From: Rhodocyclales bacterium
Lineage (GTDB): Bacteria > Pseudomonadota > Gammaproteobacteria > Burkholderiales > Rhodocyclaceae
Assembly (NCBI GenBank): GCA_016235165.1
Contig: JACRLX010000007.1
Coordinates: 124,001-188,000, forward strand
DNA: 64,000 nucleotides
Direction: 5' to 3'
Below the pieces are notes generated by a model, which worked only from the letters and a program-made list of their open reading frames with translations, was not told where the DNA came from and searched no databases. Below are positions 10,017 to 59,557 of this stretch, piece by piece. Each line of letters begins with the position of its first letter. The stretch's first letter is position 1. Made by a program: the position numbers and the translations under genes.

Positions 10017-10071
10017 GGCGGCTCCCGGGAATTTCAGCGGGCGATTATCACCCAGCCGCCCGACTTCGCGC

Positions 10072-19060: not shown

Positions 19061-19585
19061 TCACTCGGACGGGAAGCGCAGCCTGGAAAAGTTGCGCCCG
19101 GCCTGAATGGCGCGCCGCTCGATCTCTGCCGCCGACGCCAGCCAGCCTTGCTGTTCCAGGAACAGCAGGTAGGCACGGGTGCTGATCTTGCGGCAGTTGC
19201 CGGGCAGCAAAAAGCTGGCACGGGCGATTTTATGGTCCTCGAACAGAAACACGGCCGTTCGTTGCGGCTGGTCCAGGGCGAAGTCGTTCATGGCCTCCTG
19301 GATCGCCAGTTCGCCGAGATTGGCGCTGCGCGCAGCGGCGGGGTCAGTCAACGACCTCTGCTGGTAATTCCGGAAAGTGCGGGTCGCGCGCACCGATACC
19401 CGGCTGGCGGCGGCCCACTGCACCAGCTTCTCGCTGGTCGGCGTCTGGTTGCGCGTCACTTCGTGCAGCACCATATCGACCAGCACGATCGGCCAGCCGG
19501 GCTTGAACAGCAGGTCGAGCGCATCGGCATAGGCCAGCGTGATCAGCGGCCCGGCGTCGGGCAGCAGGGCGGTGTTTGCGGCCAC
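19061..19585 (-). CDS. PIN-domain-like toxin of a toxin-antitoxin pair
   Basis: A 174-residue protein beginning 'LLPDAGPLITLAYADALD', which matches the first acidic motif of PIN-like nucleases. A second acidic region is 'DMVLHEVTRN' and a third 'FLFEDHKIAR'. Known PIN toxins cleave RNA. It starts 10 bases after the stop of the ribbon-helix-helix gene, the usual antitoxin-toxin order. Target and activity are not predictable. Confidence 0.75.
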   Translation of the reverse strand: MAANTALLPDAGPLITLAYADALDLLFKPGWPIVLVDMVLHEVTRNQTPTSEKLVQWAAASRVSVRATRTFRNYQQRSLTDPAAARSANLGELAIQEAMNDFALDQPQRTAVFLFEDHKIARASFLLPGNCRKISTRAYLLFLEQQGWLASAAEIERRAIQAGRNFSRLRFPSE

Positions 19586-19595
19586 CGCGAAAGGC

Positions 19596-19943
19596 TCAGC
19601 CGGCCAGCGACTTCAGTTGATCGACCATGTCGCGCGTGTCGGCCTCCGGCAGGCGCGGCATCGGCAGATGGGCTTGCGCCATCAACAGGAAGAGGTCTTC
19701 CTCGCTGTCGATCCCCAGTGCGCGCATGGCCTCGTCGCCCGCGATCCGCCCCAGCGAAAAGTCGAGCAGCCGCCGGAAATTCTGGTTGCCCGTGGCTTCG
19801 GCCGCCTCGAAGGTTTCAACCAGATGGCGAAGCTCGGCATTGAACAAGGCATTCACCGAGGTGTCGGTCTTCGCGGCAATGATCTTGGCGCGCTTGAGCA
19901 GATCGCGATCGACGGCGCCGGTGAAATTGACGGTGCTGGCCAT
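19596..19943 (-). CDS. Ribbon-helix-helix-type antitoxin
   Basis: A 115-residue protein. Its N-terminus 'STVNFTGAVDRDLLKRAKIIAAKTDTSVNALFNAEL' region is a ribbon-helix-helix DNA-binding pattern (beta strand, then two helices). The rest is helical and likely binds the PIN-like partner. I chose the ATG at 19943 because it starts at the DNA-binding strand and an upstream palindrome lies 20 bases away. The pair would autorepress. Confidence 0.72.
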   Translation of the reverse strand: MASTVNFTGAVDRDLLKRAKIIAAKTDTSVNALFNAELRHLVETFEAAEATGNQNFRRLLDFSLGRIAGDEAMRALGIDSEEDLFLLMAQAHLPMPRLPEADTRDMVDQLKSLAG

Positions 19944-19963
19944 TTCTTGCCCCCATGGAATTA

Positions 19964-19979
19964 ACACATAATTAAGTGT
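19964..19979. promoter_or_regulatory. Candidate autoregulatory operator of the toxin-antitoxin pair
   Basis: AT-rich palindrome ACAC-ataattaa-GTGT, 20 bases upstream of the antitoxin start. It is one of the few AT-rich spots nearby. Ribbon-helix-helix antitoxins usually bind such sites over their promoter. Confidence 0.45.
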
Positions 19980-20386
19980 ATCACTCCAATATGTGCCCCA
20001 GTCATTCTCCTTGGTATTGACGGACTTTCTACCTTCAACTGGTTCGACCCAAAGGCGGCGGGTCACATTGGGCTAACGCCGCCCAAGGCCGAACGGACGC
20101 AGGAGGCTGCCGATTTGGCGGACGCCGCGGCGAGGAGTCGTGCCAGGGGTAGTCCGCTGGCGCTGTCCGACGACGACGCCCCGAAGGAAGTCCTCTTGGG
20201 GGATGCCAGCCTCATCGCCATCGGCTGGTTTCGCCAGCGGCCTGGCGCGGCCCCGTAGCAAGGGAACCCGCAGGGCGGAAGCCCATGAGGCAGCAGCCTG
20301 CGTCCGGCCGGCCGGGTTCATCCACGAAATTCGCCGTCCCGTCAGCGCCGACTCTTATGGCTTTACTTGCGCGGCAACGAGTTGCA
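19980..20386. other. Gene-poor stretch between the toxin-antitoxin pair and the HepT remnant
   Basis: No reading frame with recognisable homology, RNA or terminator is seen. It holds one copy of the dispersed repeat (20332-20353) and looks like decayed DNA between two toxin-antitoxin fragments. Confidence 0.5.
20332..20353 (+). repeat. Dispersed short repeat, copy 2
   Basis: CGCCGTCCCGTCAGCGCCGACT, one mismatch from copy 1 over this stretch. It lies in the gene-poor stretch. Confidence 0.7.
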
Positions 20387-39051: not shown

Positions 39052-39512
39052 TCAGGACGGCAAAAACTCGTCCCGATGGCCGAAGCCCTTGCCGTTGTCG
39101 ATGAAGTACATGCGCTCCGGCACCAGCCGGTACCAGGCGATGCGCGCCAATGCCTCGACGATGGCAGGCGGGATTTTCGCCAGCGGGCTGATGATGGGAA
39201 ATTTCCCGGCGTAAGCGGCGCGGGCACGACTTGCCTCTTCGCCTTGCAGCTGTTCGACCCGGCCTTCGAGCTGGACGCCCTTGATCTGCCGCCAGTCGTC
39301 GTAGTCTTCCTGTATCGTCGCCGCGCAGCGGCCATCCTGCGCCAGGTTGGCGCCGTGGCGCGATTTGGGCGATGACAGGAAGATCAGCGCGCCATCGACC
39401 CAGGCATAAAACACGGCGGCGGCCCAGGGGCCATCCGCGCCCTGCGTCGCCAGGGTCATGACCTTGTGGTTCGCCAGATAGGCGGCAAGCTCGGGCGGCA
39501 GCGGTGCCGCCA

Positions 39513-39513
<1 letters not shown>
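39052..39513 (-). CDS. Pyridoxamine 5'-phosphate oxidase-family FMN-binding split-barrel protein
   Basis: A 153-residue split-barrel protein: 'HKVMTLATQGADGPWAAAVFYAWVDG', 'SRHGANLAQDGRCAATIQED' and 'VQLEGRVEQLQGEE' are typical of small FMN- or F420/heme-binding members. Its ATG overlaps the stop of the sigma-54 regulator by one base (TGATG), so it is made together with the phenol regulator. A role in flavin handling or redox sensing is possible but unproven. Confidence 0.82.
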
Positions 39514-45486: not shown

Positions 45487-46905
45487 ATGGACTTGAGGTA
45501 CTTCATCAACCAGTGCGAAGCCGCCAACGAGCTGAAGCGGGTCGCCGCCGAAGTCGACTGGAACCTGGAAATCTCGCACGTCTCGAAGCTGACGGAAGAA
45601 AAGAAGGGCCCGGCCCTGCTGTTCGAGAACGTCAAGGGCTACAACTCGCCGGTGTTCACCGGGGCGTTTGCCACCACCAAGCGCCTGGCCATCATGCTCG
45701 GCCTGCCGCACCACCTGTCGATGTGCGAATCGGCCCAGGCCTGGATGAAGAAGACCATCACCTCCGAGGGTCTGATCAAGGCCAACGAGGTCAAGGACGG
45801 TCCGGTGCTGGAGAACATCATCTCCGGCGACAAGGTCGACCTCAACATGTTCCCGGTGCCGAAGTTCTTCCCGCTCGACGGCGGGCGCTACATCGGCACC
45901 ATGGTCTTCGTCGTATTGCGCGACCCCGAGACCGGCGAGACGAATCTGGGCACCTACCGCATGCAGATGCTCGACGAGAAGACCTGCGGCGTGCAGATCC
46001 TGCCCGGCAAGCGCGGCGAGCGCATCATGAAAAAATACGCCAAGCTGGGCAAGAAGATGCCGGCCGCCGCCGTGATCGGTTGCGATCCGCTGATCTTCAT
46101 GGCCGGCACGCTGATGCACAAGGGCGCCAATGACTTCGACATCACCGGCACGGTGCGCGGCCAACCCGCCGAGTTCCTCATGGCGCCGCTGACCGGCCTG
46201 CCGATCCCGGCCGGTGCCGAGATCGTGCTCGAAGGCGAAATCGACCCGAACAACTTCCGCCTCGAAGGCCCCTTCGCCGAATACACCGGCTACTACACCG
46301 ACGAACTGCACAAGCCCATCCCCAAGCCGGCGCTGGAAGTGAAGCAGATCCTCCACCGCAACAACCCGGTGCTGTGGGCCACCGGCCAGGGCCGCCCGGT
46401 CACCGACGTGCACATGCTGCTGGCCTTCACCCGCACCGCGACGCTGTGGACCGAGCTGGAGAAGATGAAGATTCCAGGCGTGCAGTCGGTCTGCGTGCTG
46501 CCCGAATCCGCGGGCCGCTTCTGGGCCGTGGTCTCGATCAAGCAGGCCTACCCCGGCCATTCGCGCCAGGTGGCGGATGCCGTGATCGGCAGCAACACCG
46601 GCTCCTATGGCATCAAGGGGGTGATCACGGTTGACGAAGACATCATGGCCGACGACCTGCAGCGCGTGTTCTGGGCGCTCTCCTGCCGCTACGACCCGCT
46701 GCGCGGCACCGAGATCATCAAGCGCGGCCGCTCGACGCCACTCGACCCGGCGCTCGATCCCGACTCGAACAAGCTGATCACTTCGCGCATCCTGATGGAC
46801 GCCTGCATTCCGTATGAATGGAAGCAGAAGCCGGTCGAAGCGCGCATGGACGAGGAAATGCTGGCCAGGATCAAGGGCCGCTGGACCGAATATGGAATTG
46901 ACTGA
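45487..46905 (+). CDS. ppcB: Phenylphosphate carboxylase, UbiD-like subunit (beta type)
   Basis: A 472-residue UbiD-family decarboxylase/carboxylase subunit. Carboxylation of phenylphosphate at the para position gives 4-hydroxybenzoate. The conserved Arg region is 'GTYRMQMLD' and the Glu motif 'LEGPFAEYTGYY', as in UbiD enzymes that use prenylated FMN. Length (about 53 kDa) and place as the first ppc gene fit the beta subunit; the alpha and beta labels could be swapped. AAAGGAG lies upstream of the ATG. A REP pair separates it from ppcD. Confidence 0.9.
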   Translation: MDLRYFINQCEAANELKRVAAEVDWNLEISHVSKLTEEKKGPALLFENVKGYNSPVFTGAFATTKRLAIMLGLPHHLSMCESAQAWMKKTITSEGLIKANEVKDGPVLENIISGDKVDLNMFPVPKFFPLDGGRYIGTMVFVVLRDPETGETNLGTYRMQMLDEKTCGVQILPGKRGERIMKKYAKLGKKMPAAAVIGCDPLIFMAGTLMHKGANDFDITGTVRGQPAEFLMAPLTGLPIPAGAEIVLEGEIDPNNFRLEGPFAEYTGYYTDELHKPIPKPALEVKQILHRNNPVLWATGQGRPVTDVHMLLAFTRTATLWTELEKMKIPGVQSVCVLPESAGRFWAVVSIKQAYPGHSRQVADAVIGSNTGSYGIKGVITVDEDIMADDLQRVFWALSCRYDPLRGTEIIKRGRSTPLDPALDPDSNKLITSRILMDACIPYEWKQKPVEARMDEEMLARIKGRWTEYGID

Positions 46906-47004: not shown

Positions 47005-47520
47005 ATGAACATGGACAAGGCAAAAGACATCAAGCTGTGCATCCTCGACGTCGATGGCGTGATGACCGACGGCCGCATCGTGATCGACGACAACGGCGTC
47101 GAGACGCGCAACTTCGACATCAAGGACGGCATGGGCGTCGTCGTCATGATGATGAGCGGCGTCGAAGTGGCGATCATCACCTCGAAGAAGTCCGGCGCCG
47201 TGCGCCACCGCGCCGAGGAACTCAAGATCAAGCGCTTCCACGAAGGCATCAAGAAGAAGACCGAGCCCTACGAGGCGATGCTCGCCGAGATGGGCATCAC
47301 CGACGCACAGGTGGCTTACGTCGGCGACGACCTGGTGGACCTGTCGATGATGAAGCGGGTCGGCCTGCCCATCGCGGTGAATGACGCGGTCGAGGACGTG
47401 AAGAAGCACGCCGCCTACGTGACCCAGGCGCGCGGCGGCCACGGCGCGGTGCGCGAAGTGGCCGAAATGATCCTCAAGGCCCAGGACAAGTGGGACAAGG
47501 TCCTGGCCAAGGTGGGCTGA
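47005..47520 (+). CDS. ppcD: Phenylphosphate carboxylase delta subunit (HAD phosphatase-like)
   Basis: A 171-residue (about 18 kDa) HAD-family protein with motif I 'LDVDGVMTDGR', 'IITSKKSGAVRHRAEEL' and motif IV 'YVGDDLVDLSMM', close to KdsC-type phosphatases. In Thauera the 18-kDa subunit is needed for net phenylphosphate carboxylation, likely freeing phenolate from phenylphosphate next to the UbiD core. It lies between the two UbiD-like subunit genes. Confidence 0.92.
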   Translation: MNMDKAKDIKLCILDVDGVMTDGRIVIDDNGVETRNFDIKDGMGVVVMMMSGVEVAIITSKKSGAVRHRAEELKIKRFHEGIKKKTEPYEAMLAEMGITDAQVAYVGDDLVDLSMMKRVGLPIAVNDAVEDVKKHAAYVTQARGGHGAVREVAEMILKAQDKWDKVLAKVG

Positions 47521-47530
47521 GGAAACAACG

Positions 47531-49018
47531 ATGAATTCAACCCAGGAGCACCAACACGTGTCGAAGATATCCGCACCCCGCAGCAACCGCGAGTTCATCG
47601 AGGCCTGCGTCCAGGCCGGCGATGCCGTGCGCATCAAGCAGGAAGTCGATTGGGAGAACGAGGCCGGCGCCATCGTCCGTCGCGCCTGCGAACTCGGTGC
47701 CGCCGCGCCCTTCATGGAAAAGATCAAGGACTATCCCGGTTTCAGCTACTTCGGCGCGCCGCTGTCCACCTACCGGCGCATGGCGATTTCGCTGGGCATG
47801 GACCCGGCATCGAGCCTGCCCGAGATCGGCAAGGAATACCTGAAGCGCACCAACAGCGAACCGATCGCGCCGGTGGTCATCGACCGCAAGGACGCGCCCT
47901 GCAAGGAGAACATCCTGATGGGCGCCGATGTCGACCTGTGCAAGCTGCCGGTGCCATTGGTGCATGACGGCGACGGCGGCCGCTACGTCGGCACCTGGCA
48001 CGCCGTAGTGACCAAGCATCCGGTGCGCGGCGACGTGAACTGGGGCATGTACCGGCAGATGATGTTCGACTCGCGCACCATGTCGGGCGCGGTCTTCCCG
48101 TTCTCCGATCTCGGCAAGCAGCTCACCGAGTACTACCTGCCGCGCGGACTCTCCTGCCCTTTCGCCACCGCCATCGGCCTCTCGCCGCTGGCGGCCATGG
48201 CGGCCTGCGCGCCCTCGCCGATCCCGGAACCGGAACTGGTCGGCATGCTCTCCGGCGAACCGGCGCGGCTGGTCAAGTGCGAGACCAACGACCTCGAAGT
48301 TCCGGCCGATGCCGAGATCATCATCGAAGGCGAGATCTGCCCCGACTACAAGGTCGAGGAAGGCCCCTTCGGCGAATACACGGGCTATCGCACCAGCCCG
48401 CGCGACTTCCGCGTCACCTTCCGCGTGAATTGCATCACCTACCGCAACAACGCGACCATGACGATTTCCAACATGGGCGTGCCGCAGGACGAAGGCCAGT
48501 TGCTGCGTTCCTTCTCGCTCGGCCTGGAACTGGAAAAGCTGCTCAGGAGCCAGGGCATCCCGGTCACCGGCGTGTACATGCATCCGCGCTCGACGCACCA
48601 CATGATGATCGTCGGCGTCAAGCCAAGCTATTCCGGCATTGCCCAGCAGATCGGCCAGCTCGCCTTCGGCTCCAAGCTCGGCCCCTGGTTCCACATGGTG
48701 ATGGTGGTCGACGACCAGACCGACATCTACAACTGGGACGAGGTCTATCACGCCTTCTGCACGCGCTGCCATCCCGAGAACGGCATCCACGTCTATCGCA
48801 ATACCACGGGCACGCCACTCTACCCTTTCGCCACGCCGCAGGAACGCAAGTACTCGATCGGATCCAAAGTGGTCTTCGACTGCCTGTGGCCGGTCGACTG
48901 GGACAAGGTCAACGACGTGCCGACCCTGGTCAGCTTCAAGAATGTCTATCCCCAGGACATCCAGGATCGCGTGCTGGCGAACTGGACGGCCTACGGCTAT
49001 CCCGAAGTCAAGAAATAA
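47531..49018 (+). CDS. ppcA: Phenylphosphate carboxylase, UbiD-like subunit (alpha type)
   Basis: A 495-residue UbiD-family protein. Motifs: 'NWGMYRQMMFD' (catalytic Arg region) and 'EEGPFGEYTGYRTSP' (Glu pair region), 'SYSGIAQQIGQLAFGSK' and 'IYNWDEVYHAFCTRC'. The ATGAATTC start comes 10 bases after ppcD. At about 55 kDa it fits the alpha subunit. It pairs with PpcB, PpcC and PpcD in the carboxylase complex. The downstream ppcC starts 6 bases after its stop. Confidence 0.9.
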   Translation: MNSTQEHQHVSKISAPRSNREFIEACVQAGDAVRIKQEVDWENEAGAIVRRACELGAAAPFMEKIKDYPGFSYFGAPLSTYRRMAISLGMDPASSLPEIGKEYLKRTNSEPIAPVVIDRKDAPCKENILMGADVDLCKLPVPLVHDGDGGRYVGTWHAVVTKHPVRGDVNWGMYRQMMFDSRTMSGAVFPFSDLGKQLTEYYLPRGLSCPFATAIGLSPLAAMAACAPSPIPEPELVGMLSGEPARLVKCETNDLEVPADAEIIIEGEICPDYKVEEGPFGEYTGYRTSPRDFRVTFRVNCITYRNNATMTISNMGVPQDEGQLLRSFSLGLELEKLLRSQGIPVTGVYMHPRSTHHMMIVGVKPSYSGIAQQIGQLAFGSKLGPWFHMVMVVDDQTDIYNWDEVYHAFCTRCHPENGIHVYRNTTGTPLYPFATPQERKYSIGSKVVFDCLWPVDWDKVNDVPTLVSFKNVYPQDIQDRVLANWTAYGYPEVKK

Positions 49019-49024
49019 GGAGCG

Positions 49025-49285
49025 ATGGCAATGAACCAATGGGAAGTGTTCGTCATGGACATGGCGGAGCTCGCCGAGGGCAAGGACCTCGCGCTGTCGA
49101 TCCGCACGCTCAATCCGGGCCGCCACAAGTACACCTACAAGCACGTCAGGTGCCAGGTATCGACGGATCTCGACAAGCATCCGGATCGCCTGCAGGTGCG
49201 CATGGGGCGCGGCCAGTTGAGCACGGCAAAGTTCTCGATCCAGGTGATCGAGGAAATCCGGCGCCTGCCGCCGCAATACGCATAA
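49025..49285 (+). CDS. ppcC: Phenylphosphate carboxylase gamma subunit (10 kDa)
   Basis: An 86-residue protein with no known fold name: 'NQWEVFVMDMAELAEGKDLALS' start, 'RCQVSTDLDKHPDRLQVRMG' middle. Size (about 10 kDa) and place right after the UbiD-like subunit match the gamma subunit of the Thauera carboxylase. Its only Cys is in 'HVRCQV'. The role is structural or regulatory. Confidence 0.85.
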   Translation: MAMNQWEVFVMDMAELAEGKDLALSIRTLNPGRHKYTYKHVRCQVSTDLDKHPDRLQVRMGRGQLSTAKFSIQVIEEIRRLPPQYA

Positions 49286-49346: not shown

Positions 49347-50699
49347 ATGAGCTACCGCGACCTGCGCGCCTATCTCGACGATCTCGGCGCCGATCTGCTG
49401 CGCGTCGCCGCGCCGCTGGACCCGAAGTTCGAGGTCGCCGCCGTGCTGCGCGAGGTGGCGGCACAGGGCCGCAGCGTGTTGTTTGAAAATGTGCCGGGCC
49501 ATCCCGGCATACGCATTGCCGGCAACCTGCTGGCCAGCCGGAGCCTGGCAGCAAAGGCTCTGGGGACGAGCGAGGACAAGCTGTTCGAGGTCTACGCCGA
49601 GCGCGGAGCAAGAGGTATCGCGCCGGTGGTCGCCGGCGAAGTGCCGGTGCAGGAAGTGGTGCATCGCGAGCCGACCGATGTCGGCGCCCTGCTGCCGCTG
49701 CTGACCCACCACGCCGAGGACGCCGCGCCCTTCCTCACCTGCGGCATGGTGCTGGCGCGCGACCCGGCCAGCGGCATGCGCGGCATGGGCGTGCATCGCA
49801 TGATGTACAAGGGCGGCCGGCGCTTCGGCATCCTGCTGGCCAACCCGCCGCTGTCACTGTTCCTCGCCAACGCCGAGCGCGACGGCGAGGCGCTGGAAGT
49901 GGCGATTGCGCTGGGCGTCGACCCGGCCATGCTGCTGGCTTCGATCGTCAAGACCGGACCGCTGGGCCCGGACAAGATGGAGGTCGCCGGCTCCCTGCGC
50001 GGCGCGCCGGTGGAACTGGCTCGCGCCCTGAGCGTCGATCTGGACATCCCGGCGCGCGCCGAAGTCATCATCGAAGGCCGCGTGTTGCCGGGAGTTCGCG
50101 AAGCGGAGGGCCCTTTCGGCGAAAACACCGGCGCCTATTTCTGCAACCAGAGCCCGGTGATCGAAGTCAGTGCGGTGACCCATCGCCGCGACTTCATCTT
50201 CCCGGCACTGGTGCCGTGGACCGCCGACGTCGACACCCTGCTGCAATTGGCCGGTGGCGCCGAGTTGCTGCGCCAGTTGCAAGCCCAGGTGCGGGGCGTG
50301 GCCGATCTCGAACTGGTGCCCGGCACCAGCAGCTTTGCCGCCGTGATTGCCGTGCGTGACTGTCCGCGCCACGAGGTAAGGCGCCTGATCCACCTGGCAC
50401 TCAACCTCGACCGGCGCCTGAAGGTGCTGACCGTGGTCGATGACGACGTCGATCCGCGCAATCCGCGCGAAGTGGCCTGGGCCATGTCGACGCGCTTCCA
50501 GCCGGCGCGCGACACGATCATCGTCGAGGACTGCGAAGGCTATATCATCGATCCTTCGTCGGCCGGCGGCAGCGGCTCGAAAATGGGATTCGACGCCACG
50601 CGCGGCAGCGGCAAGGCTTTCGACAAGATTTCGCTGCCGCCGGCGGCAGTGGCAAGGGCAAGGGCCGTATTGGCCGAACTCGGGTGTGTTTCCGGCTGA
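49347..50699 (+). CDS. Third UbiD-family decarboxylase-like protein
   Basis: A 450-residue UbiD homologue with 'GVHRMMYKGGRRFGI', 'EGPFGENTGAYF' and the C-terminal 'KMGFDATRGSGKAFDKI', which is closer to ordinary UbiD/decarboxylases than the two Ppc subunits. It is not one of the four carboxylase subunits. It is the start of a coupled run with ubiX-like and ribK-like genes. It may carboxylate or decarboxylate an aromatic acid of the pathway, or help load prenyl-FMN; not known. The dispersed repeat is 17 bases upstream. Confidence 0.88.
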   Translation: MSYRDLRAYLDDLGADLLRVAAPLDPKFEVAAVLREVAAQGRSVLFENVPGHPGIRIAGNLLASRSLAAKALGTSEDKLFEVYAERGARGIAPVVAGEVPVQEVVHREPTDVGALLPLLTHHAEDAAPFLTCGMVLARDPASGMRGMGVHRMMYKGGRRFGILLANPPLSLFLANAERDGEALEVAIALGVDPAMLLASIVKTGPLGPDKMEVAGSLRGAPVELARALSVDLDIPARAEVIIEGRVLPGVREAEGPFGENTGAYFCNQSPVIEVSAVTHRRDFIFPALVPWTADVDTLLQLAGGAELLRQLQAQVRGVADLELVPGTSSFAAVIAVRDCPRHEVRRLIHLALNLDRRLKVLTVVDDDVDPRNPREVAWAMSTRFQPARDTIIVEDCEGYIIDPSSAGGSGSKMGFDATRGSGKAFDKISLPPAAVARARAVLAELGCVSG

Positions 50700-50747: not shown

Positions 50748-51341
50748 ATGAAGCTGGTGGTCGGAATTTCCGGAGCAAGCGGCGCGATCTACGGACTGCG
50801 AACCCTGGAGGTATTGCAGCAGGCGGGAATAGAAACCCATCTAGTGATGTCGGACTCGGCCAAACGCACCATCGTCTATGAAACCGACTACACGATCGAG
50901 CAGGTCAAGGGTTTGGCCAGCTACGTGCATGACATCAACGACGTCGGCGCCTGCATATCCTCGGGTTCGTTCAAGACTGCCGGCATGGTCATCGCGCCCT
51001 GCTCGATCAAGACGCTTTCGGCGCTGGCCAACTCCTTCAACACCAACCTGCTGATCCGCGCCGCGGACGTCTGTCTCAAGGAGCGCCGCAGGGTCGTGCT
51101 GATGCTGCGCGAGACGCCCCTCCACCTCGGCCACCTCCGTCTCATGAGTCAGGTCACCGAGGCCGGCGCGGTGCTGGTGCCTCCCCTGCCCGCCTTCTAC
51201 CACCGGCCGAAGACACTGGAGGACATCATCGACCAGTCGGTGAACAAGGCGCTCGACCAGTTCGACCTCGGCGTCGAACTCAATCTGTTCAGGCGCTGGA
51301 CCGGCAACGAAGAGCGCGAGAAAGCCAAGTCATCGTCGTGA
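50748..51341 (+). CDS. UbiX-like flavin prenyltransferase
   Basis: A 197-residue flavoprotein of the UbiX/Pad1 family, which joins dimethylallyl phosphate to reduced FMN to make prenylated FMN, the cofactor of UbiD enzymes. It shows 'GISGASGAIYGLR', 'CSIKTLSALANSF' and 'LMLRETPLHLGHLRLM'. The ATG at 50748 is preceded by ACAGGAA. It lies between three UbiD-type genes and a riboflavin kinase gene whose GTG start overlaps its stop (GTGA), tying prenyl-FMN and FMN synthesis together. Confidence 0.94.
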   Translation: MKLVVGISGASGAIYGLRTLEVLQQAGIETHLVMSDSAKRTIVYETDYTIEQVKGLASYVHDINDVGACISSGSFKTAGMVIAPCSIKTLSALANSFNTNLLIRAADVCLKERRRVVLMLRETPLHLGHLRLMSQVTEAGAVLVPPLPAFYHRPKTLEDIIDQSVNKALDQFDLGVELNLFRRWTGNEEREKAKSSS

Positions 51342-51739
51342 ACTGCGGCGCCGTGGTGCTCGAAGGCTGCCTGCGCAGCGGGCTCGGTGAAGGCGCCGGC
51401 TTCACCAGCCTGGATTGGGTGACGCGCCAGTTCCACAGCAAGCTCGGTTTTGTTCCCCATCCCGGCACCTTGAACCTCAGCCTGAAAGGCGGCGACTGGG
51501 ACGCTGCCCGGGCCGACATGGAACAGGCCCCCGGCATCGCCATCGAACCGCCGCCGGGCTTTTGCGCGGCGAAATGCTTCACCCTGGTGATCGACGGCCG
51601 TATCCAGGGCGCCGCCGTGATTCCCGAGGTTCCCGACTATCCCGCCGACAAGCTGGAGATCGTGGCTCCGGTGGCGCTGCGCGACGCGCTGCGCGTCAGC
51701 GACGGCGATTGCATCACCCTGCATCTGCTCATCGTATGA
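51338..51739 (+). CDS. DUF120 CTP-dependent riboflavin kinase (archaeal RibK type)
   Basis: A 133-residue protein starting at GTG (overlapping the ubiX stop). It carries the motifs of archaeal RibK: 'GLGEGAGF' (15-22), 'QFHSKLGFVPHPGTLNL' (31-47) and the C-terminal 'SDGDCITLHL' (121-130). Archaeal RibK phosphorylates riboflavin with CTP instead of ATP. Bacteria normally use the unrelated RibF, so this is unexpected here. Placed between ubiX and a Nudix gene, it probably supplies FMN for prenyl-FMN. Family assignment is strong from the motifs; CTP use is inferred. Confidence 0.88.
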   Translation: MNCGAVVLEGCLRSGLGEGAGFTSLDWVTRQFHSKLGFVPHPGTLNLSLKGGDWDAARADMEQAPGIAIEPPPGFCAAKCFTLVIDGRIQGAAVIPEVPDYPADKLEIVAPVALRDALRVSDGDCITLHLLIV

Positions 51740-52257
51740 GTAGCGCCTTCTGCAGCCGCTGTGCGACGCCGATGGCCGCGGCGACGGTGGGCGGCAAGGA
51801 GCGCCCGCGGTGTCCGGCCTGCGGCTTCGTGCTCTGGCGCAACCCGGCCCCGGTGGCCATGGCCCTGATCGAGCATCACGACAAGCTGGTATTGATCCGC
51901 CGCGGCGCCGCACCACTGGCCGGTTATTGGGCGCCACCGGCGGGCTACGTCGAATGCGGCGAATCGGTGCCCGAAGCCGTGGTGCGCGAAGCCGGGGAGG
52001 AATGCGGCCTGCGGATCCAACTCGGCGGCCTGGTCGGCGTGTACTCCCAGGCCGATGTCGATGTCCTGATCGTCGCCTATGCCGCGCATTCCGCCGGCGG
52101 CGAACTGCGGGCCGGCGACGACGCCAGCGAGGTGCGGTTGTTCGCCGCCGAGGATCTGCCGCAACAGCCCCCGCCCCGCGACGGGACCGCCACCGACCTG
52201 TGGTTGCATGGCGTGGTCGAGACCACGCTACGGTACTGGCAGCACACGCACGCCTGA
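51736..52257 (+). CDS. Nudix hydrolase with N-terminal zinc ribbon
   Basis: A 173-residue protein with an N-terminal four-Cys ribbon ('CSRCATPM' and 'CPACG') and a perfect Nudix box ('GYVECGESVPEAVVREAGEECG'-like, GX5EX7REUXEEXGU). Nudix enzymes split X-diphosphate-Y bonds. The ATG overlaps the RibK stop (ATGA). In this place, likely substrates are FAD (giving FMN) or dimethylallyl diphosphate (giving the monophosphate used by UbiX); both are inference. Confidence 0.88.
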   Translation: MSSAFCSRCATPMAAATVGGKERPRCPACGFVLWRNPAPVAMALIEHHDKLVLIRRGAAPLAGYWAPPAGYVECGESVPEAVVREAGEECGLRIQLGGLVGVYSQADVDVLIVAYAAHSAGGELRAGDDASEVRLFAAEDLPQQPPPRDGTATDLWLHGVVETTLRYWQHTHA

Positions 52258-52279: not shown

Positions 52280-52741
52280 ATGATCGGCAACATCACCCCA
52301 AACCTGCCGACGAAGCTGCTCGGCTACCTGCGTCCCGGCGCGCCGGCCCTGATGCTGAGCTGCGGCGCCGACGGCTATGCCACCTCCGCCTATACCTGGG
52401 CCATCGCCATCGACGACACACATATCCGCTTCGCCGTCGACGTCGGCGGCTCGTCGATGGCCAACCTGCAACGGACCGGCCAGGCCTCGATCCAGGTCAT
52501 CGGGCCGGGCAACGTCAGTTTCCTGGTCAAGGGCAAATCGCGCCTGCTCAAGGAGCGCATCGATGCCGCCGCACCCTACTCGATCATGATCTGGGAAATG
52601 GAGGTGATGGGCGCCAAGGACCAGTCCTGGACAGGGGTTTCGACCACCGCACTGATGTATGAATGGCCTGCCGAGCAACGCGAAGCCATGCTCAGGATGG
52701 AACAGGCGGTGTATGCCGAGATGCGTGACTGGACAGCATGA
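52280..52741 (+). CDS. FMN-binding split-barrel (pyridoxamine phosphate oxidase-like) protein
   Basis: A 153-residue protein with 'GYLRPGAPALMLSCGADGYATSAYTW' and 'SMANLQRTGQASIQVIGPGNVSFLVKG' typical of small split-barrel flavoproteins. GAGGAG lies upstream of the ATG. Its stop overlaps the phosphatase gene by ATGA. A second such protein is coupled to the phenol regulator at 39052. It may carry or reduce FMN for UbiX, but this is speculation. Confidence 0.75.
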   Translation: MIGNITPNLPTKLLGYLRPGAPALMLSCGADGYATSAYTWAIAIDDTHIRFAVDVGGSSMANLQRTGQASIQVIGPGNVSFLVKGKSRLLKERIDAAAPYSIMIWEMEVMGAKDQSWTGVSTTALMYEWPAEQREAMLRMEQAVYAEMRDWTA

Positions 52742-53472
52742 TTCCGCGCACGCCGGATGGCACGGTGATCTATGCCATCGGCGACATCCATGGCCGGCTC
52801 GACCTGCTCGATGAACTGCATCAACGCATCCTCGACGACGCCGCGCGGCGGTCTGCACAAGGCCGGCTGCTGATCTACCTCGGCGACCTGGTCAGCCGCG
52901 GGCCCGATTCGCGCGGCGTGGTCGAGCGCGTGCGCAACTGGCTTCCCGCCGGTTTCGAACGCGTGGTGCTGCGCGGCAATCACGAAGAGCTGCTGCTGCG
53001 TACCCATGCCGGCGAGTTCGCCGCTGCGCGCCACTGGCTGGATTACGGCGGCATCGAAGCCATGGCCAGCTATGGCGTCGAGGTATCGGATGCGATCATC
53101 CGCGACGAAGCCGGCATCGGCGAACTATGCCACCGCTTTGCCGCCACGCTGCCGCTCGAACAACTCGAATTCCTCGAAAACCTGCCGCTCAGTCATCGTG
53201 CCGGCGACTACTACTTCGTCCATGGCGGCGTGAGGCCCGGCGTCCCGCTGGAGGAACAGAACCCGCGCGACCTGATCTGGATCCGCAAGACCTTCCTCAA
53301 TTCCGAAGCCGACCACGGCGCGGTGGTGGTCCACGGGCACAGCATCAGCCGCCAGCCCGAACCCAGGCACAACCGCATCGGCATCGACACCGGCGCCTAC
53401 CACAGCGGCGTGCTGACCTGCCTCGCGCTCGACGGCGCCGACCGACTTTTTCTGCAAACTGAAGTCGTTTAG
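52738..53472 (+). CDS. PPP-family serine/threonine protein phosphatase (PrpA-like)
   Basis: A 244-residue metallophosphatase with the PPP signatures 'AIGDIHGRLDLLDEL' (GDxHG), 'YLGDLVSRGPDSRGVVE' (GDxxDRG type) and 'LRGNHEELL' (GNHE), and 'VHGGVRPG'. It binds two metal ions and removes phosphates from proteins. It ends the ppc/ubiX/ribK run through an ATGA overlap with the flavoprotein gene. Its target is unknown; the CHASE2-linked kinase far upstream is one possible source of substrate. Confidence 0.9.
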   Translation: MIPRTPDGTVIYAIGDIHGRLDLLDELHQRILDDAARRSAQGRLLIYLGDLVSRGPDSRGVVERVRNWLPAGFERVVLRGNHEELLLRTHAGEFAAARHWLDYGGIEAMASYGVEVSDAIIRDEAGIGELCHRFAATLPLEQLEFLENLPLSHRAGDYYFVHGGVRPGVPLEEQNPRDLIWIRKTFLNSEADHGAVVVHGHSISRQPEPRHNRIGIDTGAYHSGVLTCLALDGADRLFLQTEVV

Positions 53473-53667: not shown

Positions 53668-55404
53668 ATGACTGTGCAAAGTGTTTCGCTGACCATCGCC
53701 GGCAGCGGCGGCGCCGGGGTGGTTACCGCCGGCTCGCTGCTGCTCGATGCCGCCGCCCGCGCCGGCTGGTATGCGCTGATGAGCCGCTCCTCGGGGCCGC
53801 AGATCCGCGGTGGCGAAGCCGCCGCCATGCTGCGTTTCGCCACCGAGCCGATCATGTCGCATGACGACAGCTTCCATCTGCTGATGGCCATTGACTGGGA
53901 CAACATCACGCGCTTCGCCGCAGAAATACCGCTCACCGCCGCCAGCCTGATCGTCGGCGATCCGGCCCACGGCGATGCGCCGGCCGGCCTGCTGAAGAAC
54001 ACGCCGCGGGTCGCCGCCCTGCCGATGTCGGACATCGCCGGCACGATCGAGAACGGCCGCCCCAACATGGTCGCCCTTGGCGCGATCGCCGCGATGATCG
54101 GGCTGCCCCCCGCGGCGATGCGCATCGTGGTCGAAAGCGCGCTGAAGAAGAAGGGCCCCGCCGCGATCGAGGCCAGCATGGCCGCCTTTTTCGCCGGCAT
54201 CGATGCCGCCAAGTCCCTGCCCGCGATCCCGCGCCTCCCTGCCGTCGCCGCCGACAGCACGCCGCGCTGGAGCATCACCGGCAACGAGGCCACCGGCCTC
54301 GGCGCCATCCGCGGCGGCGTGCGCTTCGTCGCCGCCTATCCGATCACCCCGGCCACCGAAGTCCTCGAGTGGCTGGCGCCCTCGCTGGCCAAGGTTGGCG
54401 GCATGCTGGTGCAGGCCGAGGACGAACTGGCCTCGATCAATCAGATCATCGGTGCCTCCTACGGCGGCACGCCGTCGATGACCGCCACCTCCGGCCCCGG
54501 CCTCTCGCTGATGATCGAATCGCTGGGCCTCGCCGTCGCCGCCGAAGTGCCGCTGGTAGTGGTCGACGTGATGCGCGTCGGCCCCTCCACCGGCATCGCC
54601 ACCAAGTCCGAGCAGAGCGACCTCAACATCGCGGTCTACGGCCTGCACGGCGATGCGCCGCATGTCGTGGTCGCCGCCAATTCGGTGGCCGACTGCCTGT
54701 TCACCACGCAATGGGCGGTGCATCTGGCCGAAGCCATGCAGGTGCCGACCCTGGTGCTGACCGACCAGGCCATGGGCCAGGCCCGCGCCATCCTGCCCAA
54801 GCCCGCCGAACTGACTTTCATCGGCCAGCGCGAAGTAGCGAAGGCCGCCGTCGAAGGCCAGCGCTACAAGCGCTACGCCATGACGGGATCGGGCGTCTCG
54901 CCGATGGCCATCCCCGGCACGCCGGGCCTGACCCATACCGCCGACGGCCTGGAGCACAACGAATTCGGCACGCCGTCTTCGCAGGCTTCCGACCACCAGG
55001 CGCAGATGGACAAGCGCCAACGCAAGATCAGCCAGTTCAACTATGGCGACCACTGGGCCGACATCGAAGACTCGGAAGTCGGCGCTGGAGAGACGGCGAT
55101 CATCACCTGGGGTTCCGCCACCGGGCCGGCGCGCGAAGCCCTGCAACGCCACGCCGATGCCGGCGGCAAGGCGCGCCTGATCTCGCTGCGCCTGATCGCC
55201 CCGGTGCAGCCGGAAAAAATGGCCGAAGCCCTGCGCGGCATCAAGCGCGCGGTGGTCGTCGAGCAGTCGCACAGCGGCCAGTTCCATCGCATGCTGCGCG
55301 CTTTCTACGATCTGCCGGCGGAAACCGTGTCCCTGCACCAGGGCGGCCCGCTGCCCTTCGGCCCCAAGCAGATCCTCGACCAACTCAACGCCTGGAGCGC
55401 ATGA
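53668..55404 (+). CDS. korA: 2-oxoacid:ferredoxin oxidoreductase, fused gamma-alpha subunit
   Basis: A 578-residue protein. The N-terminal gamma-type domain (about 1-180, 'TIAGSGGAGVVTAGSLLLDAA') is followed by the alpha domain ('GNEATGLGAIRGGVRFVAAYPITPATEV' region, 'SYGGTPSMTATSGPG'). With the TPP subunit KorB it oxidises a 2-oxoacid (2-oxoglutarate most likely) to the acyl-CoA and reduces ferredoxin. In Thauera such a two-subunit enzyme feeds benzoyl-CoA reductase. A GGAGG site precedes the ATG. Overlaps korB by ATGA. The substrate is inferred by analogy. Confidence 0.88.
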   Translation: MTVQSVSLTIAGSGGAGVVTAGSLLLDAAARAGWYALMSRSSGPQIRGGEAAAMLRFATEPIMSHDDSFHLLMAIDWDNITRFAAEIPLTAASLIVGDPAHGDAPAGLLKNTPRVAALPMSDIAGTIENGRPNMVALGAIAAMIGLPPAAMRIVVESALKKKGPAAIEASMAAFFAGIDAAKSLPAIPRLPAVAADSTPRWSITGNEATGLGAIRGGVRFVAAYPITPATEVLEWLAPSLAKVGGMLVQAEDELASINQIIGASYGGTPSMTATSGPGLSLMIESLGLAVAAEVPLVVVDVMRVGPSTGIATKSEQSDLNIAVYGLHGDAPHVVVAANSVADCLFTTQWAVHLAEAMQVPTLVLTDQAMGQARAILPKPAELTFIGQREVAKAAVEGQRYKRYAMTGSGVSPMAIPGTPGLTHTADGLEHNEFGTPSSQASDHQAQMDKRQRKISQFNYGDHWADIEDSEVGAGETAIITWGSATGPAREALQRHADAGGKARLISLRLIAPVQPEKMAEALRGIKRAVVVEQSHSGQFHRMLRAFYDLPAETVSLHQGGPLPFGPKQILDQLNAWSA

Positions 55405-56246
55405 TGGAATGCACCGCGCAGAAGAAGAAATACCTGGCCAAGGACTACAAGTCCGAGCTGAAGCCGATCTGGTGTCCGGGTTGCGGCGACTACACGGTGC
55501 TCAACGCCATTACCCGCGCCCTGGCTGAGATGGCCCTGCCGCCCGAGCAGGTCGCGGTGGTTTCCGGCATCGGCTGCTCCTCGCGGATTCCGGCCTACAC
55601 CAGTGTCTACGGCTTCCACGGCGTGCATGGCCGCGCCCTGCCGGTCGCCACGGGCTTGAAGCTGGCCCGCCCCGACCTCACGGTGCTGGTCACCGGCGGC
55701 GACGGCGACGGCTTCTCCATCGGCGGCAACCACTTTCTCCACGCCTGCCGGCGCAACGTCGACCTGACCTACATCGTCATGGACAACCAGGTCTATGGCA
55801 TGACCAAGGGCCAGGCCTCGCCGACCACCGCGCCGGACTGGGAAGGCAGCAAGCTGACGCCGGAAGGCACCGGCATCAATCCCTTCCAGCCGCTGGTGGT
55901 GGGCCTCGCCTCGGGCGCCAACTTCATCGCCCGCGTCTCGGCCAGCGACCCGGTGAACATGGCGCAGATCATCGTCGAAGCCGTGCGCCACCCAGGCTTT
56001 TCGCTGGTGCAGGTACTCAGCCCCTGCGTCACCTTCCGCCCGGAACAGGCCGTATGGCGCGATACCGTGCGCACCGCGGTGGTCGATTACACCGATGACG
56101 CCGCGCGCGCCGCGCGCCGCCTGATGACCGACGACGGCTTCAACGTCGGCAAGGTGCTCTACAAAGGATCACGGCCGCCCTACCGGCCCGAATTCGAAGC
56201 CTCCAACGGCTCGATCGGCGAGCTCGAAGCGAGGTTCGCACTATGA
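55401..56246 (+). CDS. korB: 2-oxoacid:ferredoxin oxidoreductase beta subunit (TPP-binding)
   Basis: A 281-residue TPP subunit. It carries 'WCPGCGDYTVLNAI', 'GIGCSSRIP' and 'SPCVTFRP', giving Cys ligands for one [4Fe-4S] cluster, and 'TGGDGDGFSIGGNHF' for Mg-TPP. These match 2-oxoglutarate:ferredoxin oxidoreductase beta subunits. It overlaps korA upstream and the rubrerythrin-like gene downstream (ATGA each). Confidence 0.9.
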   Translation: MMECTAQKKKYLAKDYKSELKPIWCPGCGDYTVLNAITRALAEMALPPEQVAVVSGIGCSSRIPAYTSVYGFHGVHGRALPVATGLKLARPDLTVLVTGGDGDGFSIGGNHFLHACRRNVDLTYIVMDNQVYGMTKGQASPTTAPDWEGSKLTPEGTGINPFQPLVVGLASGANFIARVSASDPVNMAQIIVEAVRHPGFSLVQVLSPCVTFRPEQAVWRDTVRTAVVDYTDDAARAARRLMTDDGFNVGKVLYKGSRPPYRPEFEASNGSIGELEARFAL

Positions 56247-56773
56247 GCGAGGCAACGCCGCAGGATCAGCCGATCAACAGCCTGGGGGTATTGCTCGCTC
56301 ATGCGCTGGCGATGGAAAACGATGCCGCCGACCGCTATGGCGAACTGGCCGACCAGATGGAAATGCATCGCAAAAAAGAGGTCGCCGGCATCTTCCGTCG
56401 CCTCCATAACGCGGAACAGAAGCACCTCGCCGAGCTGGAGGAACTGACCGCCGAGATGGATCTGCCACACATCGCGCCCTGGGATTTCAAGTGGGGCGGT
56501 GAAAGCCCGGAAGCCATCGCCGTCGACCGCGTCAGCTACCAGATGAGCGTCAAGGGCGCGGTACTGCTGGCCCTGCAACACGAGAAGCAAGCCTACGGCT
56601 TTTACAGCCGCGTCGCCAACCAGACCAGCGACAGCGAAGTCAGGCGGCTGGCCAGGCAGTTCGCCGACGAGGAACTGCAGCACGTCGCCTGGCTGGAGGA
56701 ATGGCGCGACAAGTGCGGGCCGGACGACGAAATGCCGCTCGACGATCCCGACCCGCCATTGAGCCAGGAATAA
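56243..56773 (+). CDS. Rubrerythrin/ferritin-like diiron protein
   Basis: A 176-residue four-helix protein with a ferritin-like diiron pattern: 'AHALAMENDAADRY', 'RLHNAEQKHLAELE', 'LALQHEKQAYGFY' and 'FADEELQHVAWLEEW' give the Glu and His ligands. There is no rubredoxin-like Cys domain. It is coupled to korB by ATGA. I infer peroxide or oxygen protection of the oxygen-sensitive oxidoreductase. Confidence 0.88.
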   Translation: MSEATPQDQPINSLGVLLAHALAMENDAADRYGELADQMEMHRKKEVAGIFRRLHNAEQKHLAELEELTAEMDLPHIAPWDFKWGGESPEAIAVDRVSYQMSVKGAVLLALQHEKQAYGFYSRVANQTSDSEVRRLARQFADEELQHVAWLEEWRDKCGPDDEMPLDDPDPPLSQE

Positions 56774-56811
56774 GGACGCTCATGACTTCGATTGCCCCTT
56801 TCCCAACATGA

Positions 56812-57210
<399 letters not shown>

Positions 57211-57232
57211 AAACACACACCGAGGAGCAAGC

Positions 57233-59557
57233 ATGGGCATCAGAGACAAGCTGGACCGGCTGGCCGCGCGCCTGCACGACGCGCCGCAGTACAACTCGCA
57301 GGGCGCCGTACTTTTCGTCGACCTGGAAAAGCGCCAGACGCTGAAGAAGTACCTGCCGCTGGAGGTGATGCGTAACTTCCTCGGCGGACGCGGCGCCAAC
57401 ATGTGGCTGCTCTACAACCTGCTGGAGGATGAGCGCGCAGCGCTCGATCCGGAGATCCCGCTGATCTTCGGCGCCGGCATCCTCACCAGCAGCATGCCCT
57501 CGGCCACACGCGGCAATTTCAGCAGCATCTCGCCGGAATCCGACGCCATCCTCGACGCCAACGGCGGCGACTACTTCCCCTCCTTCCTGCGCACCCACGG
57601 CTACGACCACATCGTCATGTTCGGCCGCGCGCCGTCCTGGACGCTGCTGAAGATCGCCTACGAGAAGGTCGAATTCGTCGATGCCGCGCCCTATGTCGGC
57701 ATGGACAACCTGGAACTCGCCGCCGCCGTCGAACGCGACTTCGACTGCGTCGAGCGCGAGACCATGGCCATGGCGCGCATCACCACGGCCGGCGAGAACC
57801 AGGTGCTCTCCGCCGGCATCATGGGCGGCATCAAGGCGATCTGGGCGCGCGGCGGCGGCGGCGCCAAGATGGGCTCGCTCAGGCTCAAGGCCATCATGGT
57901 CCATGGCGCGCCGCGCGAGCTGCAGCCGGTCGAGCCCATGGCCAGGTACAACAAGGTGATCGGCAAGAAGATCATCACCACCAGCGTGATCAAGAACGCG
58001 CTGAAAATGGTCGGCACACCCTTCCTCTACAAGCCCAGCCGCGTGCTCTGCGCGCTGGGCGCCAAGAACCACCAGGAAACCAGTTGGAAGGAAAGCCTCG
58101 ACGCCGACAACTTCGATCCCTACCGGCCCGGCATGGACGGCTGCTACCTGTGTCCCGTGCATTGCCGCAACCAGAACGACATGCTGCCCGACGGCCACGG
58201 CGGCTGGGGCGCGGCGGCGCTCAAGGGCCTTACCGGCAATGCCAGTTACGACAAGGCCCAGGCCGAAGTCGAACATGCGGCGGCGCGTGATTACAAGGGC
58301 GTCAAGGGCGACGGGCATTTCGACAAGTACGACAAGGGTGACGGTCCCGAGTACGTCACCCTGGGCAAGTTCGGCCCGCTGATCGGCATCGCCGAACCGG
58401 AGCAGGTGCTGCGCCTGAACAACATCCTCAACGACCTCGGCCTCGATTCTTCCTCGACCGGCAGCTCCATCGCCTGGGCCATGGAGCTCTACCAGCGCGG
58501 CATCATCACGCAGAAGGACACCGGCGGACTCGACCTGTCCTGGGGCAACTACGAGGCGATCGAGAAGCTGCTGTTCATGACCGCGAAGCGTGAAGGCTTC
58601 GGAGACACCATCGCCGACTCGGCGCGCGCCGTCGAACGCGGCAAGTACCCGAAGGAAGCGCTGGACTACCGCCTGACCGTCAAGGGCCTGTTCCAGTCCG
58701 ATCCGCACGACGCCCGCATCCTCAAGGCCTTCGCGCTGGGCCTGTCGGTGGCCACGCGCGGCATGGACCACCTGCGCAACCGCGTCACGCTGGAAATCAA
58801 CGCCCGCATCAACGACGATCCGGCCTTCAAGACCGCGCTTTACAACGGCGTGGTTTCCGCCGCGCCGAACAGCTACGAGGGCAAGGAATACGCGGTCAGG
58901 AAGTGCGAGAACAACTACGCCGTCGGCGACTCGGTCGGCATGTGCCGCTTCAACACCAAGCTGTTCAACTCGCCGACCCTGCCCGATCCCGGCGATTTCG
59001 CCGTGCAACTGAGCTCGCTGACCGGCCAGAAGTTCGAGGAAGCCGGCATGGACGAGATCGGCCGCAACATCTCGGGCATCGAGCACATGCTCAACTTCCG
59101 CCGCGGCCTGCGCGCCAAGGACGACACCCTGCCCCGCCGCTGGTTCGAGGAGCCGCTGACCGAGGGACCGTTCAGGGGCGAGAAGATCGACCGCGAGCAA
59201 TTCGAGGCGATGAAGCAGCGCTTCTACCAGATCACCGGGCTCAATGCCGAGGGCCTGCCGGCCGCCGAGTGGCACGAAAAGCTGTCGCGCCTGATCACCG
59301 GCTTCGCCGTCCGCGTCGAACTGCCCAGGCCGCTGCCGGGCGCGCCGGACAAGGAAGTGGTGATAGACGAGCCGGTGGCCGACGTCGGCGCGCTGCGCCG
59401 TGCCATCCAGCACAAGCTGCCGGAAGCGGCGGAGGACCTCGCCGACAAGTCGTGGAACGTCGCGGTCAATGGCGAAATGCTGCTTTCGGGCGAAGCGGCA
59501 AAACGCATCGCCAGTGGCGACCGCGTGGCGCTGGTTCCCATCATTGCCGGAGGCTGA
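57233..59557 (+). CDS. Aldehyde:ferredoxin oxidoreductase (tungsten, AOR family) with fused C-terminal MoaD/ThiS-like domain
   Basis: A 774-residue enzyme, about 150 longer than usual AORs. The AOR domain spans about 20-690, with 'GGRGANMW' and 'ATRGNFSSISPESD' for bis-pterin binding. [4Fe-4S] ligands are C304, C307, C311 ('CYLCPVHC') and C571 ('GMCRF'). Residues 693-774 form a beta-grasp sulfur-carrier domain ending in 'VALVPIIAGG', with the Gly-Gly end that MoaD uses for sulfur transfer. It would oxidise an aldehyde to an acid, or run in reverse, with ferredoxin. GAGGAG precedes the ATG. It is part of a ferredoxin-AOR-CoA ligase operon. Substrate not known; aryl aldehyde is a guess from the context. 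Confidence 0.88.
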   Translation: MGIRDKLDRLAARLHDAPQYNSQGAVLFVDLEKRQTLKKYLPLEVMRNFLGGRGANMWLLYNLLEDERAALDPEIPLIFGAGILTSSMPSATRGNFSSISPESDAILDANGGDYFPSFLRTHGYDHIVMFGRAPSWTLLKIAYEKVEFVDAAPYVGMDNLELAAAVERDFDCVERETMAMARITTAGENQVLSAGIMGGIKAIWARGGGGAKMGSLRLKAIMVHGAPRELQPVEPMARYNKVIGKKIITTSVIKNALKMVGTPFLYKPSRVLCALGAKNHQETSWKESLDADNFDPYRPGMDGCYLCPVHCRNQNDMLPDGHGGWGAAALKGLTGNASYDKAQAEVEHAAARDYKGVKGDGHFDKYDKGDGPEYVTLGKFGPLIGIAEPEQVLRLNNILNDLGLDSSSTGSSIAWAMELYQRGIITQKDTGGLDLSWGNYEAIEKLLFMTAKREGFGDTIADSARAVERGKYPKEALDYRLTVKGLFQSDPHDARILKAFALGLSVATRGMDHLRNRVTLEINARINDDPAFKTALYNGVVSAAPNSYEGKEYAVRKCENNYAVGDSVGMCRFNTKLFNSPTLPDPGDFAVQLSSLTGQKFEEAGMDEIGRNISGIEHMLNFRRGLRAKDDTLPRRWFEEPLTEGPFRGEKIDREQFEAMKQRFYQITGLNAEGLPAAEWHEKLSRLITGFAVRVELPRPLPGAPDKEVVIDEPVADVGALRRAIQHKLPEAAEDLADKSWNVAVNGEMLLSGEAAKRIASGDRVALVPIIAGG

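Follow-up and report, generated by a model that had tools for sequence, protein, structure and literature searches.

Prenyl-FMN enzymes are sought as a means of fixing CO2 on aromatic compounds. Many enzymes of the UbiD family resist being activated by co-expression of UbiX alone (PMC10865409). The placement of UbiX beside UbiD-family genes is shared between the described UbiX-UbiD prenyl-FMN system and the locus analyzed here. Among phenylphosphate carboxylase clusters, plasmid pAZKH of Azoarcus sp. KH32C carries the order ppcB-ppcD-ppcA-ppcG-ubiD-ubiX-DUF120-nudix. The same order is found in the window, by which we mean the whole 64,000-nucleotide stretch of Rhodocyclales bacterium DNA that was analyzed. 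Here we consider what the DUF120 gene of this run, hereafter ribK, may contribute to the cluster.

The alpha, beta, gamma and delta subunits of phenylphosphate carboxylase encoded in the window all score above the NCBIfam equivalog cut-offs (TIGR02723, TIGR02724, TIGR02725 and TIGR02726; Table 1). Three UbiD-type genes, encoding PpcB, PpcA and a third UbiD-family protein, lie upstream of ubiX with the PpcD and PpcG genes interspersed among them. Behind the Ppc genes come, in order, the third UbiD, UbiX, RibK, a Nudix hydrolase, a PNPOx-like protein and a metallophosphatase. The GTG start of ribK falls within the ubiX stop in a GTGA overlap (51338-51341), and ribK is joined to the Nudix gene by an ATGA overlap (51736-51739). 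Profiles and sequence therefore agree with the first-pass annotation, which had described a ubiX-DUF120-Nudix run with these overlaps behind three UbiD-type genes. The third UbiD-family protein is a probable client of a prenyl-FMN module. Further downstream, at 53668-59554, the window encodes a 2-oxoacid:acceptor oxidoreductase pair, a YfhL-type ferredoxin and a distant member of the aldehyde ferredoxin oxidoreductase family, which are perhaps the electron source for later steps of aromatic degradation.

Table 1. Features of the phenylphosphate carboxylase region in window coordinates. The start of PpcB was set at the beginning of the profile match.
Feature	Position	Strand	Evidence
Second PNPOx/YhbP-like gene	39052..39513	-	44-46% identity to relatives in L038, L039
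Phenylphosphate carboxylase beta (PpcB, UbiD family)	45487..46905	+	TIGR02724 1039.5 bits
Phenylphosphate carboxylase delta (PpcD, HAD family)	47005..47520	+	TIGR02726 303.5 bits
Phenylphosphate carboxylase alpha (PpcA, UbiD family)	47531..49018	+	TIGR02723 1064 bits
Phenylphosphate carboxylase gamma (PpcG)	49025..49285	+	TIGR02725 137 bits (cut-off 135.6)
Third UbiD-family protein	49347..50699	+	TIGR00148 270 bits
UbiX flavin prenyltransferase	50748..51341	+	NF004685 261.5 bits (cut-off 188), TIGR00421 240.4 (cut-off 108.9)
DUF120 / CTP-dependent riboflavin kinase-like RibK, 133 aa, GTG start	51338..51739	+	PF01982 104.3 bits (cut-off 25)
Nudix hydrolase, zinc-ribbon-like N-terminal part	51736..52257	+	PF00293 57.8 bits (cut-off 21.1)
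Weak PNPOx-like split-barrel protein	52280..52741	+	PF01243 21.8 (below 28.1), NF005232 32 (below 93)
Calcineurin-like metallophosphatase, overlaps PNPOx-like gene	52738..53472	+	PF00149 55.7 bits

Sequence searching matched the window RibK to the archaeal protein MJ0056 with an E-value of 7.6e-13. The protein missed the NCBIfam equivalog cut-offs of NF040694 (ribK_Meth; 63.8 versus 168) and NF010762 (90.0 versus 279), and these two models place it as related to the archaeal enzymes without being their equivalog. An AlphaFold model of RibK had a pLDDT of 91.3. When this model was submitted to Foldseek, all seven chains returned at E<=0.001 were RbkR or MJ0056, with E-values of 2.2e-10 and 8.2e-10, respectively, and among the matched chains are riboflavin kinase structures containing CTP, CDP or FMN. 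The predicted fold of RibK thus matches that of the archaeal riboflavin kinases MJ0056 and RbkR.

Alignment of 82 distinct bacterial DUF120 domains revealed that T43, N45, P96 and E107 (MJ0056 numbering) are invariant in all of them, and the window RibK retains GLGEG, T43, N45, E107 and R115, which we take to bind CDP/nucleotide, Mg and flavin. Among the 49 betaproteobacterial RibK domains, E17 of GLGEG is present in 45 and R115 in all; outside this group E17 is found in only 14 of 33 and the GEG motif is loose. In the same alignment the Thr at position 99 of MJ0056, presumably an FMN contact, is not kept, being Pro in the window RibK and variable in the bacterial rows. Cys73 occurs in 82/82 bacterial domains and is absent from the four archaeal rows aligned, and Trp26-Val27 also belongs to the bacterial signature. 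Four pairwise NG86 comparisons gave dN/dS ratios of 0.14-0.33 for RibK, 0.02-0.09 for UbiX and 0.21-0.36 for Nudix; by these ratios RibK is under purifying selection, faster-evolving than UbiX yet constrained. A viral origin was not indicated, as no RibK relatives were found in viral_contigs and there were no PHROG matches.

The DUF120-bearing bacteria surveyed have, with one exception, a riboflavin kinase of their own. A RibF kinase domain was found in 47 of 48 DUF120-bearing bacterial genomes, the exception being G812, a genome whose completeness is not given. The window genome contains a single DUF120 gene, and its RibF scores 440 bits against a cut-off of 306. Replacement of RibF by RibK is ruled out by these counts, and RibK would be an extra rather than the housekeeping riboflavin kinase because RibF accompanies it. 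Since RibF could supply FMN, its presence leaves the need for RibK unexplained.

A search of genome_contigs returned 39 relatives of the window RibK, and 36 of these, all betaproteobacterial, share the layout of the window. Ppc genes can be seen in 31 of the 36 loci, the remaining five being short or cut. UbiX lies directly upstream of RibK in 35 of the 36, the gap to the closest candidate start being -35 to +208 bp; the one exception is a contig that starts 24 bases before the RibK match. The adjacency noted in the window is thus conserved in related phenol clusters, and at this frequency it is not due to chance. The exact 4-base overlaps are not general, as many relatives have gaps. Every relative with enough upstream DNA (34/34) carries the third UbiD upstream of UbiX-RibK. 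Aromatoleum buckelii (L015) has two RibK copies approximately 9 kb apart, in the stretches 7954-10983 and 19384-20215. The first belongs to a UbiD-UbiX-RibK-Nudix run with no Ppc genes upstream, and the second sits beside a Ppc gamma gene of the opposite strand.

The family of the window was surveyed with 199 genomes picked regardless of UbiX. DUF120 was found in 21 and PpcG in 17 of these, and all 17 PpcG genomes carry DUF120. The four remaining DUF120 genomes represent one genus, whose DUF120 is joined in one protein to a HAD phosphatase domain; no UbiX was found in the stretches fetched around any of these four fusions. UbiX lies within 1.5 kb of DUF120 in 15 of 20 family loci, the window excluded. 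In one family member (G004) a divergent UbiX (59%) is located downstream, past RibK and Nudix, and RibK still follows the third UbiD. DUF120 is rare beyond the family: phylum-wide it was detected in 2 of 398 genomes (the window's own and one weak match), and order-wide in 3 of 399, namely the window's own, G912, which has UbiX and Ppc genes, and G888, whose two matches fall below the cut-off. No module genes were found near the two G888 matches or near a match in G333 (23 bits; 30 with in-frame neighbours); the locus L069 was judged from its open-frame listing.

One of the relatives (L039) comes from a Binatia MAG, which led to a survey of its phylum. DUF120 occurs in 25 of 247 genomes, at 27 places, and PpcG in 15, of which 13 also have DUF120. 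Of the 27 DUF120 places, 13 (12 of 26 when the Binatia genome is left out) have UbiX no more than about 1.5 kb away. DUF120 is found near UbiX outside archaea in this phylum as well as in the family of the window. Wider stretches, fetched for 20 places, added five with UbiX for a total of 18/27; no UbiX was found in them at the other nine. We estimate the chance of either of two UbiX genes lying so near in a 3-5 Mb genome at well under 1%. Fisher values of 3.6e-21 and 3.3e-13 overstate independence, since the genomes within the family and within the phylum are related. Four second-phylum loci (L129-L132) have the phenol-type order PpcB-PpcD-PpcA-PpcG-UbiD-UbiX-RibK; two PpcD-like HAD genes are present in these carboxylase clusters.

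RibK and UbiX also occur together with no phenol cluster in view, at four loci (L038, L128, L039 and L124). The order in L038 and L128 is XdhC, RibK, UbiX, type-2 IPP isomerase and two PNPOx-like genes, and L039 is similar but lacks the isomerase. L124 reads UbiD, HAD, RibK-HAD, UbiX, a second (partial) RibK and type-2 IPP isomerase. Also with no phenol cluster in view, L122 has RibK with the isomerase and UbiX approximately 8.5 kb away, L114 has the isomerase immediately before RibK, and L127 has UbiD immediately before RibK with UbiX nearby. The isomerase is therefore by RibK in five genomes, where it scores 413.7 (L038), 413.1 (L128), 387.1 (L124), 367.8 (L122) and 351.2 bits (L114) against the TIGR02151 cut-off of 281.3. 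Type-2 IPP isomerase uses FMN, which would be a possible second reason for a flavin kinase beside it. Nothing speaks more strongly for a supply module than the gathering round UbiX of both the isomerase, a source of DMAPP, and RibK, a predicted source of FMN. Fusions of DUF120 to HAD phosphatase domains were seen in L065-L068, L040, L115, L119, L121, L123, L125 and others; the neighbours of those in L065, L119 and L123 resemble, by eye, molybdenum hydroxylase genes.

The prenyl donor of UbiX bears on what else such a module would need. According to published work, Gln203 is found in the DMAPP-specific A. niger UbiX, His164 in the E. coli O157 UbiX, which uses both donors, and Phe at this position in the DMAP-specific P. 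aeruginosa UbiX, and the residue is not the sole determinant of DMAPP/DMAP specificity (PMC6541611). The window UbiX has Gln at PaUbiX position 181, equivalent to A. niger Q203, and so carries the DMAPP-type residue there. The 70 UbiX rows collected, which include a few double fragments of one gene, have Gln in 62, His in seven, Tyr in one and Phe in none; a recount on a 120-residue core gave Gln in 60 of 68, His in seven and Tyr in one. UbiX genes away from RibK account for the Tyr row and for L072 and L073, two His rows from a single gene. With Gln in the window UbiX and no Phe in the collected rows, conversion of DMAPP to DMAP is probably unnecessary. The window UbiX is the only UbiX in its genome, the second PF02441 match being CoaBC, whereas UbiD-family genes number five, including a ubiquinone-type UbiD elsewhere. 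As the sole UbiX, the enzyme of the phenol cluster probably serves ubiquinone synthesis too, and loss of the cluster would probably affect quinone synthesis as well.

The first-pass annotation had offered the Nudix protein as a maker of DMAP from its diphosphate. This role is disfavoured both by the Gln of UbiX and by the inconstancy of the gene, which is absent from 4 of 31 betaproteobacterial clusters and from all second-phylum loci scanned. The other role offered in that annotation, making FMN from FAD, may be open to the protein. The window protein has, by eye, a complete Nudix box, and its closest PDB match is 3cng. It scored 47.4 bits against the NF001299 cut-off of 158 for NudC (NAD(+) diphosphatase). 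Type-1 IPP isomerase is a Nudix-fold family, and no type-1 isomerase model was among the 17 NCBIfam families listed at E<=0.01; neither identity is supported. Of the 31 betaproteobacterial loci with at least 3.4 kb of downstream sequence, 27 have the Nudix gene, and the PNPOx-like gene and the metallophosphatase gene occur in 22 each. No Nudix relatives were found in the second-phylum loci scanned; many of these loci have HAD domains, and it is a guess that these do the work of the Nudix protein there. On this distribution the Nudix protein is an accessory hydrolase of the cluster and not a constant one, and RibK, constant beside UbiX, is the steadier UbiX partner.

The PNPOx-like protein possibly binds flavin, as judged from its fold class. 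A 45% relative of the gene behind the Nudix gene lies beside a RibK-HAD fusion in L115. The relatives of the second gene of this kind are the first of the two PNPOx-like genes next to RibK-UbiX in L038 and in L039; in the window this gene adjoins, from behind, a sigma54-type regulator gene.

Judged from gene order, the pairing of RibK with UbiX is recurrent and functionally meaningful, as no fewer than two phyla show it, in several arrangements of the genes, and its repetition in distant bacteria suggests a dedicated cofactor supply line for anaerobic phenol breakdown. We consider it probable, with some reserve, that RibK supplies UbiX with FMN as a second, specialised riboflavin kinase, one of the CTP-using type found in archaea. 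Counting against this reading are the missed equivalog cut-offs, the loss of the presumed FMN-contact Thr, the loose GEG motif beyond the betaproteobacterial group, the nine second-phylum places and four HAD fusions with no UbiX in the stretches fetched, and RibF as another source of FMN. In the scheme that we propose, in which the reactions of RibK, the Nudix protein and the PNPOx-like protein are predicted ones, RibK would convert riboflavin and CTP to FMN and presumably hand it to UbiX. UbiX would then join the FMN, once reduced, to DMAPP to give prenyl-FMN, which PpcA, PpcB and the third UbiD would take up to carboxylate phenylphosphate. The PNPOx-like protein might carry or reduce flavin. 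The prenyl-FMN supply module put forward in the first-pass annotation is supported by genome context in its core, the RibK-UbiX link, which recurs in two phyla and in varied contexts with an isomerase in five genomes; its DMAP-making Nudix step is not. A wider reading is offered tentatively. Bacterial DUF120 proteins in general could be prenyl-FMN pathway enzymes, not housekeeping ones, and near-obligatory for phenylphosphate carboxylase. With type-2 IPP isomerase, UbiX and UbiD they would form a portable unit that makes the cofactor locally from riboflavin and isopentenyl diphosphate, paid for by CTP and set apart from the ATP-driven FMN/FAD pool, perhaps with channelling from RibK to UbiX.

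RibK might instead have retained the barrel that binds flavin and nucleotide but act chiefly as a carrier or chaperone, shuttling FMN or prenyl-FMN from one to the other of UbiX and UbiD. Another UbiD system has such a chaperone for prenyl-FMN, LpdD, whose fold is Pba3/4-like and so differs from that of RibK (PMC10865409). LpdD-like folds were likewise absent from the Foldseek matches at E<=0.001. A riboflavin kinase already present as RibF, the signature Cys73 of the bacterial domains that the four archaeal rows lack, and the loss of the presumed FMN-contact Thr would all suit a carrier, but the invariant T43, N45 and E107, presumed Mg and nucleotide residues, would be superfluous in a protein that merely carries, and we regard this reading as unlikely. 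The same residues would be expected of a CTP-dependent kinase acting on another pathway substrate, such as prenol, to give DMAP, or prenylated riboflavin, in a salvage of dephosphorylated prenyl-FMN. Retention of the CTP/Mg residues without the presumed flavin contact, the redundancy of plain FMN synthesis next to RibF and the HAD phosphatase domain fused to many RibKs point this way. Set against them, DMAP seems unneeded, as UbiX has Gln or His in all rows but one, a DMAPP-making isomerase adjoins in five genomes, and the overall predicted fold is that of riboflavin kinases; we think such a kinase quite improbable.

That UbiX, RibK and Nudix are mere neighbours spread with phenol clusters, RibK having no part in prenyl-FMN supply, is in our judgement very improbable. 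The betaproteobacterial loci are not independent, since their RibKs form one group with a support of 94 in a tree that was quick, with 60 rows and many weak branches, and from which every other betaproteobacterial row had been removed, together with four rows that were partial or duplicates. The Nudix, PNPOx-like and phosphatase genes also come and go. RibK, however, keeps company with UbiX, UbiD or IPP isomerase in both phyla, in varying gene arrangements and also away from phenol clusters, and in G004 it stays behind the third UbiD while the divergent UbiX has its place downstream.

If RibK, and elsewhere IPP isomerase, is a regular partner of UbiX, precursor supply becomes a concrete factor to test when active enzymes are to be made, beginning with phenylphosphate carboxylase. 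A kinase family known from archaea, for which DUF120 is often the sole annotation, would also gain a role in bacteria. The first-pass annotation had considered the link of such a kinase to a UbiD/UbiX system possibly undescribed. A literature search that covered few subscription papers found no paper that connects either DUF120 or riboflavin kinase in bacteria to UbiX, UbiD or phenylphosphate carboxylase, and the original Thauera cluster papers may depict the ORF. No mention of ubiX, Nudix or riboflavin was found in the available part of the EbN1 phenol paper, and ubiX and riboflavin kinase are absent from the Dechloromonas paper. The gene order itself already stands in public records, with the product given as a DUF120 domain-containing protein. 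What is new is only the reading of the DUF120 gene.

With MJ0056 and with RbkR of Thermoplasma (TA1064), RibK shares the Pfam family, the predicted fold and T43, N45 and E107, and the window RibK also GLGEG. It differs from the archaeal kinases in that its host is a bacterium with its own RibF and in its signature of Cys73 and Trp26-Val27, and from RbkR in being a stand-alone protein of 133 residues without the HTH part. RibK adjoins UbiX, whereas two haloarchaeal plasmid copies, the only ones viewed, adjoin the riboflavin gene ribB. LpdD of gallate decarboxylase is likewise small and accessory to a UbiD enzyme, but RibK is a riboflavin-kinase-like barrel to which the LpdD fold, as described, is unrelated (PMC10865409). 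Compared with the phenylphosphate carboxylase clusters of Aromatoleum and Azoarcus, the window is a further member with no essential difference. Relative to the UbiX-UbiD system, a flavin kinase-like gene is added here and, in other genomes, a DMAPP-making isomerase too.
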